Assembly: GCA_902563835.1 (NCBI GenBank)
Contig: CACEZB010000010.1
Coordinates: 1 to 39,906 of the forward strand
Reading direction: 5' to 3'
Source: an uncultured SAR86 cluster bacterium
GTDB taxonomy: Bacteria > Pseudomonadota > Gammaproteobacteria > Magnimaribacterales > D2472
Length of the DNA: 39,906 nt
Shown: positions 7,041-11,170 of the stretch, piece by piece
Layout of the letters: the number at the start of each line of letters is the position of its first letter
How positions within the stretch are numbered: position 1 is the first letter of the stretch
The notes under the pieces: model-generated
Databases searched by the model: none
Told to the model about the DNA's origin: nothing
What the model saw: only the letters and a program-made list of their open reading frames with translations
Translations under genes and position numbers: made by a program

Positions 7041-7514
7041 ATGAATACTTTTAAAAAAGTTAGTGTTTTATTTGGTTTATTTTTAATTACTGCATGCGGT
7101 GGAGGTGGAGGCGGAATGGGCTCTGATGATCCATATACACCTCCTACAACACCAACACCTGGTACTGGAATGACAGCAATAGATAAAACATTTGTAATAA
7201 CAGTTGCACCAACTCAAGCTTATGGCGCAACAGGTAACAGATATTATGTTGATGGAGAAGAAAGCCCTGTGATTAGTATGGAAGTTGGTAAGCGATATGC
7301 ATTTGATCTATCAAGTTCTTCAACATCTACTCATCCTTTCAGAATATCAAGTGCAATGGAAAGTGGTATGACTTATGGCGAGTTAATGGGCACTCAAGGA
7401 ACATCAGGGGCTATTTATGTTTTTGATGCTACGAACGCCAATGCTGGAGTTACATTATATTATTGGTGTAATGCACATTCTGGAATGGGTAATGTTATTA
7501 ATTTAATTAACTAA
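7041..7514 (+). CDS. cupredoxin (plastocyanin-like) domain lipoprotein
   Basis: 157 aa, unnamed. A signal peptide ends in the lipobox LITAC, so Cys19 should be lipidated. A Gly/Pro/Thr-rich linker (20-45) then leads to a beta-rich domain. Type-1 copper ligands are in the expected order: His98 in STHPF, then Cys143, His146 and Met149 in YYWCNAHSGM (C-x2-H-x2-M). This suggests a membrane-tethered periplasmic blue-copper electron carrier; its redox partner is not evident from neighbours. It is preceded by a GGAG ribosome-binding site and by its own promoter and leader. It is convergent, with a 4-base overlap, with the dioxygenase gene. A role in copper binding is inferred from the ligands alone. 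Confidence 0.82.
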   Translation: MNTFKKVSVLFGLFLITACGGGGGGMGSDDPYTPPTTPTPGTGMTAIDKTFVITVAPTQAYGATGNRYYVDGEESPVISMEVGKRYAFDLSSSSTSTHPFRISSAMESGMTYGELMGTQGTSGAIYVFDATNANAGVTLYYWCNAHSGMGNVINLIN

Positions 7515-9306: not shown

Positions 9307-10098
9307 TTAAAATAATAATAGTAATACGATTCCAAGCACTACTCGGTATGCTACAAATGGAATCATTCCAATTTTCTCAATGAAAATTAGAAAATATTTT
9401 ATAGTAAAAAAAGCTATAAGCATTGAGACTAAAAATCCTATTATTAGGTTTAAAAAGTTATAAGAAATATCAACCGTTTGTATTTCAAGCAAAAGAAATA
9501 CCAGAGCACCTAAAATTGTAGGTATGCCCAACATAAATGAAAACTTGGATGCATCTTTTAAATTTAAACCTATAAATAGAGCTGCGGTTATAGCAGTGCC
9601 TGATCTTGATGCGCCTGGAATTAAAGCAAAACATTGTACTAGTCCAATTATCAAAGCTCCATATATAGTTATTTCATATATTGTTTTGTTTCCTTTTGTA
9701 TAAACAAAGGTAAGCAACAAAAGTAATGCAAAGAATAAATTTGCTAGAGCTATAGTTGAAGTATTAAAAATTCTTTGTTCGATCATCTCTGAAGATAAAA
9801 GGCCTGCTAATACGATTGGCAAGGTGGCAACAATTAATAAGATTGCTAACTTTTTATACTCTGCAAGATTGGGTTCATATGCAATAAAGGAGTTAACCAT
9901 ATTTACAATCTCAGATTTAAAAAAATATATAACAGCCACTAATGTTCCAGCATGAACAGCTATATCAAACGATAAACCAAGATCAGCAGTACCGAAAATT
10001 AAAGATGGTAATAATAAATGTGCTGAGCTCGAGATAGGTAAAAATTCAGTTAATCCCTGTATTAATCCAAGTACTAGACTTAAAACAATATCATTCAT
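9307..10098 (-). CDS. uppP: undecaprenyl-diphosphatase UppP (BacA)
   Basis: 263 aa polytopic membrane enzyme that dephosphorylates undecaprenyl pyrophosphate so the lipid carrier can be reused for peptidoglycan and other envelope polymers. The (E/Q)-x3-E motif reads QGLTEFLPISSSAH (Gln14, Glu18, then His27), and the second active-site motif is IPGASRSGTAITAALFIGL. Hydrophobic helices fill the rest. The start overlaps the end of tsaB by 8 bases. Length is normal (about 265-275). Confidence 0.95.
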   Translation of the reverse strand: MNDIVLSLVLGLIQGLTEFLPISSSAHLLLPSLIFGTADLGLSFDIAVHAGTLVAVIYFFKSEIVNMVNSFIAYEPNLAEYKKLAILLIVATLPIVLAGLLSSEMIEQRIFNTSTIALANLFFALLLLLTFVYTKGNKTIYEITIYGALIIGLVQCFALIPGASRSGTAITAALFIGLNLKDASKFSFMLGIPTILGALVFLLLEIQTVDISYNFLNLIIGFLVSMLIAFFTIKYFLIFIEKIGMIPFVAYRVVLGIVLLLLF

Positions 10099-10522
10099 TT
10101 AATTTTTTAAAATTTATATCTTCTGAATAAGTAGGATTTGCAAAATTCGGATCAAATGCCTTTGCGTCTGAACCTGCTGATAGAAATTTTTCTTTAGCCA
10201 ATTTAACAACAACATCTGCCTGGAATTCATCATTAGAATTTTCATCGATAACAATCAATGGTTTGCCTAAGGCGACTGCTATGCCTTTCATGTAACTAGC
10301 AATAGTTCTAGTTGCGGTATAAGAATTTTGTGAGTTTCCAAATGCAAATAAATCAATATCTTTAAGTTCAAAATCTCTCTTAAAGCCGACATTAGATAAA
10401 AACATATCCCAATCAGGCCTGTCTTTTCTTGCATGAGTCAAAGAAAAAGAATTTATCTCTTCGTCTAACATAACGCTAACTGAGGTCTGGTCCCCAGAAC
10501 TTTGCATAGCTAAAATATTCAT
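10091..10522 (-). CDS. tsaB: TsaB-like tRNA threonylcarbamoyladenosine scaffold protein, miniaturised
   Basis: 143 aa against about 230 for E. coli TsaB. TsaB is the ASKHA-fold scaffold that dimerises with TsaD during t6A37 formation on tRNA. The N-terminal lobe is recognisable (MNILAMQSSGDQTSVSVML; then KDIDLFAFGNSQNSYTATRT at about 54-73, matching the GPGSFTGVR region, and GIAVALGKPLIVI). The following C-terminal subdomain is almost entirely absent, yet the last residues (ANPTYSEDINFKKL) still resemble the normal C-terminal tail. The frame is intact and sits in an overlapping operon between adk and uppP, so this looks like an internal deletion in a maintained gene rather than decay. TsaB is the best call; I am less sure than for its neighbours. 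Confidence 0.72.
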   Translation of the reverse strand: MNILAMQSSGDQTSVSVMLDEEINSFSLTHARKDRPDWDMFLSNVGFKRDFELKDIDLFAFGNSQNSYTATRTIASYMKGIAVALGKPLIVIDENSNDEFQADVVVKLAKEKFLSAGSDAKAFDPNFANPTYSEDINFKKLNE

Positions 10523-10525
10523 GAT

Positions 10526-11170
10526 TTATAAATTGTCTGAAATACTCTTAAAAACATTCTCTACTGAGTCAGACCCATCTACTTTAATAAATTTTAAAGT
10601 TCCACTATTTGCTAGATTCATATAAAAATCTGTCAGAGGTTTAGTTTGTTCCTGATAAACGTTTAAACGCTTTAATACTGTTTCAGGCTTATCATCTTCC
10701 CTTTGAATGAGTGGTTCGCCAGTATCATCATCTATTCCCTCATTCATTGGAGGATTGAACTCGATATGATAATTTTTACCAGATCCTGGATGCACCCTTC
10801 TGCCAGACATCCTATTAACAATGGTTTCATCTGCGACTTGAATTTCTATGACATGCGTAAAATCTATACCCATTGCTGCAAGTTGCTCAGCCTGTCCAAT
10901 AGTTCTTGGGACTCCATCAAACAAAGAACCATTTACACAATCAGGTTTCGTAAGCCTATCTTCTATCAATGATCCTATGATTTCATCAGATACTAAAGCT
11001 CCGCTATCAAGAATTTCTGATACTTTAATGCCTAACTCACTCCCAGATGCAACAGCTTCTCTAAGCATATCGCCGGTACTAATCTTTGGAATATCAAATA
11101 AATCGCATATCAAATCTGCTTGAGTTCCTTTTCCAGCTCCTGGGGGCCCTAATAAAATAATATTCTTCAT
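10526..11170 (-). CDS. adk: adenylate kinase
   Basis: 214 aa, exactly the usual long-lid bacterial length. It interconverts ATP+AMP and 2 ADP in the cytosol. Walker A is [10 protein letters not shown] (8-17); STGDMLREA (AMP binding), [15 protein letters not shown] (the Phe of the usual DGFPRT is Val) and the lid [19 protein letters not shown] are clear. The lid has no zinc cysteines, as in other proteobacteria. It overlaps acpS by 4 bases. Here adk sits downstream of the rnc-era-recO-acpS group. Confidence 0.97.

Follow-up and report, generated by a model that had tools for sequence, protein, structure and literature searches.

TsaB (YeaZ in E. coli) meets TsaD through α-helices of the N-terminal lobes of both proteins, its tail reaches onto TsaD, and TsaE sits at the TsaD–TsaB interface (PMC9654439); how TsaB assists is described as still incompletely understood (PMC11648230). 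In Aquifex TsaB, residues 1–90 and 161–195 make up the N-subdomain and residues 91–160 the C-subdomain, and helices α1 and α2 have a role in the TsaD–TsaB helical bundle (PMC11648230). In the E. coli complex an ADP lies at the interface, in contact with the GPGS motif, with Arg118 and His34 and with the Arg32 carbonyl; the TsaB motif that contacts ADP reads GPGS(Y/F)TG(I/L/V)R in full, and GPGS is the best-conserved motif of YeaZ (PMC4330362). The same source reports that the R118A variant of YeaZ is fully active in t6A synthesis, that YeaZ 1–219 shows slightly improved TsaD binding and remains able to form the ternary complex, and that E. coli TsaE binds only the TsaD–TsaB heterodimer (PMC4330362). 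Removal of the tail from T. maritima TsaB abolishes tRNA binding (cited in PMC11648230).

Here we describe a tsaB orthologue of 143 amino acids, hereafter mini-TsaB, encoded in a 39,906-nucleotide stretch of contig CACEZB010000010.1 (the window) from an uncultured SAR86 cluster bacterium. It is probably a TsaB reduced to a single ASKHA lobe that serves as a TsaD-binding adaptor for t6A synthesis, where we infer both the binding and the activity. No description of a single-lobe TsaB was found in the literature searched, which covered few subscription journals.

A short tsaB gene between adk and uppP

The place of mini-tsaB between adk and uppP is that of full-length tsaB in relatives, and the gene is nested among full-length orthologues in the trees described below; it is a tsaB orthologue by descent. 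A first-pass annotation, made from the letters of the window, had already proposed an intact 143-aa tsaB frame, and the ORF itself, the TsaB family model, a profile of orthologues and the adk–tsaB–uppP position all confirm this. It had also spoken of overlapping neighbours, which holds for uppP but not for adk (Table 1).

The NCBIfam TsaB model TIGR03725 matches residues 3–93 with E=1.1e-5 and 25.5 bits, below its curated cut-off of 69.3 bits. Short forms also occur in three further genera of the family (g2, g17 and g12; the window's genus is g1), and these score 21.8, 30.8 and 35.0 bits, respectively, against 93.4 for the full-length protein of G070. Annotation that relies on the cut-off would therefore probably not call the short forms TsaB, and because the curated definition fails in score, C-subdomain and motif, we set the mini form apart from ordinary TsaB members. 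A profile of 23 orthologues ranks YeaZ/TsaB structures first (3r6m, E=1.9e-6, profile positions 2–94), with E. coli TsaB at 0.011 and Aquifex TsaB (8iey) at 0.66, and these matches lie within the N-terminal positions 1–95. Pfam returned only sub-threshold matches to mini-TsaB (TsaD, E=0.063; Flavodoxin_1, E=0.034); a flavodoxin identity (PF00258) was discarded in favour of TsaB, the match being under its own cut-off. Among named records, which are of SAR86 cluster bacteria, the closest relative is the protein of isolate AG-365-D17 (99% identity), and that of SAR86A (JH611156.1) is 62% identical over 143 residues. Elsewhere in the window, positions 7041–7514 of the plus strand hold an ORF for a lipoprotein-like product of 157 aa that finds nothing in Pfam at 1e-3; its end (YYWCNAHSGMGN) resembles a cupredoxin copper site.

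Table 1. Positions in the window of mini-tsaB, its neighbours and the segments of its product.
Feature	Position	Strand	Remarks
mini-tsaB, 143 aa, complete ORF	10091..10522	-	ATG start, no stop inside
adk, upstream neighbour, synteny conserved	10526..11170	-	3 bases separate adk from the mini-tsaB start
uppP/bacA, downstream neighbour, synteny conserved	9307..10098	-	8-base overlap with mini-tsaB
Residues 1–93, N-terminal lobe part 1	10244..10522	-	TIGR03725 match 3–93; AlphaFold block pLDDT 80–97
Residues 62–72, GNSQNSYTATR, at the site of the TsaB GPGS(Y/F)TG(I/L/V)R motif	10307..10339	-	GPG lost, S-Y/F-T-A-T-R kept
Helix 68–85, by position probably α2 of the TsaD–TsaB helical bundle	10268..10321	-	Model; PMC11648230
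Linker, residues 94–101, replaces the ~74-residue C-terminal subdomain	10220..10243	-	Poorly conserved (0.48)
Residues 102–115, last helix, completes the N-subdomain	10178..10219	-	Model block pLDDT 92–95; pairwise alignments
Residues 116–143, C-terminal tail; F.P..NP.Y and a K/R-rich end are conserved	10094..10177	-	Low confidence past residue 130

The C-terminal subdomain is absent and one lobe is predicted

Alignments, the ORFs at the locus and a C-lobe profile agree that the C-terminal subdomain of TsaB is absent from mini-TsaB. Since the N-subdomain of TsaB is discontinuous, the deletion takes out just the C-subdomain. The missing stretch amounts to about 74 aa relative to G070, whose 217-aa protein is the closest full-length one in the tree, and to 88 aa relative to E. 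coli YeaZ (231 residues; PMC4330362), which makes the first-pass estimate of about 85 residues a fair one. Its statement that the N-terminal lobe and the C-terminal tail are kept was right in that both are present; however, the tail is the last element of the N-subdomain, the whole C-subdomain is gone, and the N-lobe is itself altered by the loss of GPG. The retained end FDPNFANPTYSEDINFKKLNE aligns without gaps with YNPNDANPVYLKDTSYKKLND of G070. In most pairs the deletion is broken up by plain pairwise alignment, and we therefore took the boundary after residue 93 from the model and from the G034–G070 alignment, the cleaner one, which places a 76-residue gap after residue 94.

AlphaFold predicts mini-TsaB as one lobe (pLDDT 88.0, pTM 0.84) with strands at residues 3–8, 12–19 and 22–29, a helix at 38–45, a strand at 58–63, a helix at 68–85, a strand at 89–93, a helix at 102–115 and a short helix at 120–123, the tail being poorly modelled (block pLDDT 65 and 53). 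The predicted order of three strands, helix, strand, helix, strand and helix is that published for the TsaB N-subdomain (PMC11648230). Judged on predicted models, the TsaB N-subdomain fold (βββαβαβα with the last helix) is present in the mini form and likewise in the short lineage of g12. The best 25 PDB matches in Foldseek were all TsaB/YeaZ chains (top 5br9_D, E=3.4e-8). In VIA-align, E. coli YeaZ (4wq4_C, residues 1–228) aligns with 139 of the 143 model residues at Z 17.9 and rmsd 2.5, and P. aeruginosa YeaZ (4y0w_C) with 129 of them at Z 18.5 and rmsd 2.1; TsaB chains took ranks 1–14 (Z 16.0–18.5), and TsaD/Kae1 chains followed from Z 15.7 with two more TsaB chains among them.

The GPG of the nucleotide motif is absent in all 36 proteins read from g1, g2 and g17, and GPGS is present in every full-length protein read apart from the frame-broken one of G102. 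The short form of g12 keeps GPG in a loop one residue longer (GPG-S/K-S-Y-T-A, 8/8). Among 23 aligned orthologues of mini-TsaB, 29 columns are invariant, and the fast-evolving parts are the linker (conservation 0.48) and residues 116–123 (0.43). A weakened or changed function is another possible reading of the loss of the best-conserved YeaZ motif.

Distribution of short forms and constancy of the locus

A search of 107 family genomes with a short-form profile gave a match in 85, of which 49 carry short forms in four genera: 24 in g1, 1 in g2, 16 in g17 (open frames of 141–155) and 8 in g12 (frames of 150–172). No stop lies inside any short frame listed. The remaining 36, in g3, g13, g14, g15, g16 and g18, have frames of 216–232 except for G108 (frame 111, where the contig ends) and G102. 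At the latter locus (L145), the tsaB frame contains two stops and the C-lobe is still found; the assembly has few contigs and is 59% complete, and the stops may be an assembly error.

Within the window's genus the short gene was present in 24 of 34 genomes, that is, in all in which tsaB was found. Loss of tsaB from the other ten was considered, but a gap in the assembly explains them more simply, since nine gave no adk match either and in the tenth (G033) the contig ends inside adk; this inspection covered the ten same-genus genomes among the 22 family genomes without a match. Gene order (lepA-lepB-rnc-era-recO-acpS-adk-tsaB-uppP-rsmJ) is constant in 60 loci whether tsaB is short or full length, genes missing from some of them mostly lying at contig ends or beyond the reach of tblastn. 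In the outgroup, where tsaB was located by position alone in eight of nine loci, the ORF between adk and uppP measures 216–227 aa (f2, f3) or 189–190 aa (f4).

We also surveyed 397 evenly sampled genomes from across the phylum, taking a TIGR03725 match over the cut-off to mean full length. TsaB exceeded it in at least 389, and the other eight were the window's genome and seven more, three of which have TsaB-type frames of 234–270 aa that score below the cut-off. G239 and G271 have a TsaD-type match, G271 with one further match at chance level. G452 (3.0 Mb, listed as 100% complete) gave no TIGR03725 match of either TsaB or TsaD type. The complete 1.2-Mb genome G435 (locus L251) has a 171-aa TsaB-like frame that retains GPG but is shortened in its C-terminal part, and it may represent another lineage of reduction. 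Among the matches listed for this small sample of 397 genomes we recognised no other single-lobe TsaB.

Two apparent origins of the short form

In a tree of 59 rows and 2235 columns, built from eight neighbour proteins, g1, g2 and g17 group together (SH-aLRT 99) and are joined in turn by the full-length genera g13 (96), g3 (86) and g15 (99), with g12 outside. A mixture-model tree of 28 rows agrees (98 for g1+g2+g17, 100 with g13, 99 with g15). Holding all short forms together was rejected by the AU test with p=1.4e-4 on the eight-gene set of 59 rows and p=8.0e-5 on the 28 rows with the mixture model; TsaD alone gave p=0.040, in a tree with long branches in which the outgroup did not fall on one side of a branch. 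The tested group was defined by protein length, yet the test was run after the first tree had been seen. A single origin of all short forms is rejected on these values, and the short form seems to have arisen twice, once in the g1+g2+g17 lineage with loss of GPG and once in g12 with GPG kept and one residue inserted. Near the root of the family, the trees give no firm placing of g12. Regain of the full-length form is formally possible, and would need the same C-lobe to have come back. The g12 protein has 150 aa (158 in G066, from a start chosen by script) and is likewise predicted as one lobe (pLDDT 87.9 for the best of five models, 62.5 for the lowest), with YeaZ 4y0w_A as its best structural match (Z 16.1).

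Purifying selection on mini-tsaB

Mini-tsaB is under purifying selection. Calculated by NG86 on pairs within 0.05<pS<0.55, the dN/dS values are rough, because the method is simple and the pairs overlap in ancestry, though far from 1: the median was 0.214 for g1+g2+g17 (50 of 630 pairs, range 0.038–0.525), 0.132 for g12 (21 of 28 pairs) and 0.182 for the full-length genes of g13–g16 and g18 (7 of 136 pairs). Pooled over ten hand-picked close pairs, dN/dS was 0.132 overall, 0.106 for approximately residues 1–93 and 0.177 for the retained helix and tail. In four g17 pairs, tsaB (0.136) can be set beside adk (0.046), era (0.024), recO (0.055), uppP (0.111), rsmJ (0.115) and acpS (0.23).

The first-pass annotation had argued that the gene is no pseudogene and had suggested dN/dS as a check. 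With the pooled value of about 0.13 and 49 short forms in open frames across four genera, its argument is borne out. A recent deletion, which it had named as an observation that would speak against its reading, is not what we find, as the short form occurs in 24 of 24 same-genus genomes with the gene and in g2 and g17 as well.

Searches for a second TsaB and a separate C-lobe

A second, full-length tsaB elsewhere in the genome was the other such observation, and it was not found among the listed TIGR03725 matches (E≤1) of 25 short-form genomes of g1 and g2, each of which had at most two, a TsaD-type protein and the mini gene. For g17 and g12, searched with the short-form profile alone, there was one match per genome.

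With a C-lobe profile built from 15 sequences, the best match in 11 short-form genomes was no better than 0.027 (weak matches in frames of 373–385, 792 and 45 aa), and that in 31 short-form loci no better than E=8. The profile matches eight full-length genomes at E≤2.5e-17, which are no independent control because all were in the profile. Rebuilt with each genus omitted in turn, the profile recovered 17 of the 20 omitted loci at E≤1e-6, with G130 at 1.4e-4, G035 at 0.0098 and G108, where the contig ends, giving none; of nine outgroup loci only G037, G051 and G036 scored about 1e-3 or better. A family-like C-lobe would therefore be visible in most cases, and a strongly diverged one would not.

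Partner proteins

Short tsaB co-occurs with TsaD, TsaE and TsaC in most genomes, the misses falling in incomplete assemblies. PF00814 exceeds its cut-off in 56 of 60 relatives, of which we count 55 as TsaD (E≤4.7e-85) because the match in G028 is weak and lies in another kind of ORF; the five without a strong match (G000, G022, G024, G025 and G028) are 60–84% complete. All 20 chosen family genomes have TsaD. There was no TsaD match in the window's own genome (73% complete), where TsaE and TsaC are present, or in the short-form genome G024 (66% complete); G018, whose mini-TsaB is 99% identical to that of the window, has TsaD. TsaE is over its cut-off in 56 of 60 relatives and TsaC in 35 of 40, and all misses are in assemblies less than 90% complete except that of TsaE in G058 (92%).

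The SCDET and H-x3-H motifs are unchanged in 25 aligned TsaD proteins. One column passed a strict filter, a Thr to Gly change (CTDN to CGDN) where the surrounding sequence is otherwise highly conserved, found in the ten g1+g2+g17 proteins and also in full-length G070 (e.g. L263, L264, L254, L255). Judged by its position, the neighbouring Asp is presumably the third metal ligand of the H-H-D motif described in the literature. Compensation by TsaD for the mini form was considered and set aside, the change being a single filtered column and common to full-length G070.

Discussion

We propose that an in-frame deletion of the C-subdomain in the common ancestor of g1, g2 and g17 left residues 1–93, the last helix and the tail. 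Mini-TsaB would then pair with TsaD via the conserved helical bundle and keep it in its active form, the TsaD–mini-TsaB surface and the tail would offer the docking place for TsaE and tRNA, and the chemistry and ATP-driven cycling would stay with TsaC, TsaD and TsaE. That TsaB meets TsaD mainly by its N-terminal lobe, as the first-pass annotation had stated, is published (PMC9654439; PMC11648230). The proposal implies that the C-lobe and the interfacial ADP site, formed in E. coli by the GPG loop and a C-lobe arginine, would be dispensable. By analogy, the full activity of R118A indicates that the arginine, at least, can be dispensed with; taken together with the ternary complex formed by YeaZ 1–219, it suggests that loss of the interfacial ADP site is tolerable. 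Against the proposal stand the tail, which T. maritima TsaB needs for tRNA binding and which is retained but poorly modelled in the mini form, the missing TsaD match in the incomplete genomes of the window and of G024, and the loss of GPG from the best-conserved YeaZ motif. We lean, if only slightly, towards the wider view that SAR86 has twice independently made a one-lobe adaptor functionally like Pcc1 of KEOPS and that its t6A synthase runs without the C-lobe of TsaB or an interfacial nucleotide site; if so, the TsaE–ATP reset of TsaD cannot depend on that site.

The short ORF might instead be a functionless remnant of a tsaB gene on its way out of streamlined genomes. The fast evolution of the linker (0.48) and of residues 116–123 (0.43) and the loss of the best-conserved TsaB motif would fit such decay. 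Yet short forms account for 49 of the 85 matched family genomes in four genera without a stop in the frames listed, dN/dS is about 0.13, and 29 columns are invariant in 23 orthologues, and we give decay almost no weight. A C-lobe made from another locus that joins up again with the mini form is also unlikely: although a strongly diverged lobe could escape the profile, which scored G035 at 0.0098, missed G108 and found most of the nine outgroup loci weakly or not at all, none of 11 short-form genomes gave a match better than 0.027 and the 31 short-form loci gave nothing better than E=8, which makes a split gene very improbable.

A retained lobe could also have taken on another conserved role, for instance as a regulatory partner of TsaD or TsaE, with TsaD working as a homodimer like mitochondrial Qri7. 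TsaD and Qri7 homodimers do use the same helical bundle (PMC11648230, PMC4330362), and the nucleotide motif has been lost. However, no same-genus genome with a visible locus lacks the gene, TsaE is kept too even though in E. coli it binds only the TsaD–TsaB heterodimer (PMC4330362), and the sole TsaD column past the strict filter for g1+g2+g17 is common to full-length G070, so that repurposing appears unlikely. The reading of mini-TsaB as a one-lobe adaptor of TsaD is the one we prefer.

Evolution thus appears to have arrived at a minimal TsaB helper. A natural, selected single-lobe TsaB of 140–158 residues says which part of the protein is indispensable, and it could be a small reagent for reconstitution and for testing whether the interfacial nucleotide site matters.

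Compared with described TsaB/YeaZ proteins (E. coli YeaZ, 4wq4; Aquifex TsaB, 8iey), the mini form shares the N-subdomain fold, the last helix, the tail, the locus and, in most genomes, the partners, but it is without the C-terminal subdomain, has S(Y/F)TATR in place of GPGS(Y/F)TG(I/L/V)R and falls under the curated cut-off. TsaB of f4 (179–196 aa) and of G435 (171 aa) resembles it in having a shrunken C-terminal part in a small genome, but unlike the mini form of g1+g2+g17 both keep GPG and part of the C-lobe region; the f4 genes (L028, L076, L077, L078, L082 and L083; lengths from script-chosen starts) belong to other relatives within the same taxonomic order. Pcc1 of KEOPS is likewise a small partner, and its contact with the N-terminal lobe of Kae1 is similar to that between TsaD and TsaB; according to the same source it is unrelated to YeaZ (PMC4330362), whereas the mini form is a TsaB that has been shortened. 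In the 50 entries that our structure search listed, the KEOPS chains were of Kae1 length and the best matches were TsaB chains. Finally, Qri7/OSGEPL1 illustrates that a TsaD-type enzyme works with the bundle contact alone, but it does so as a homodimer of catalytic subunits, without TsaB (PMC9654439, PMC4330362).
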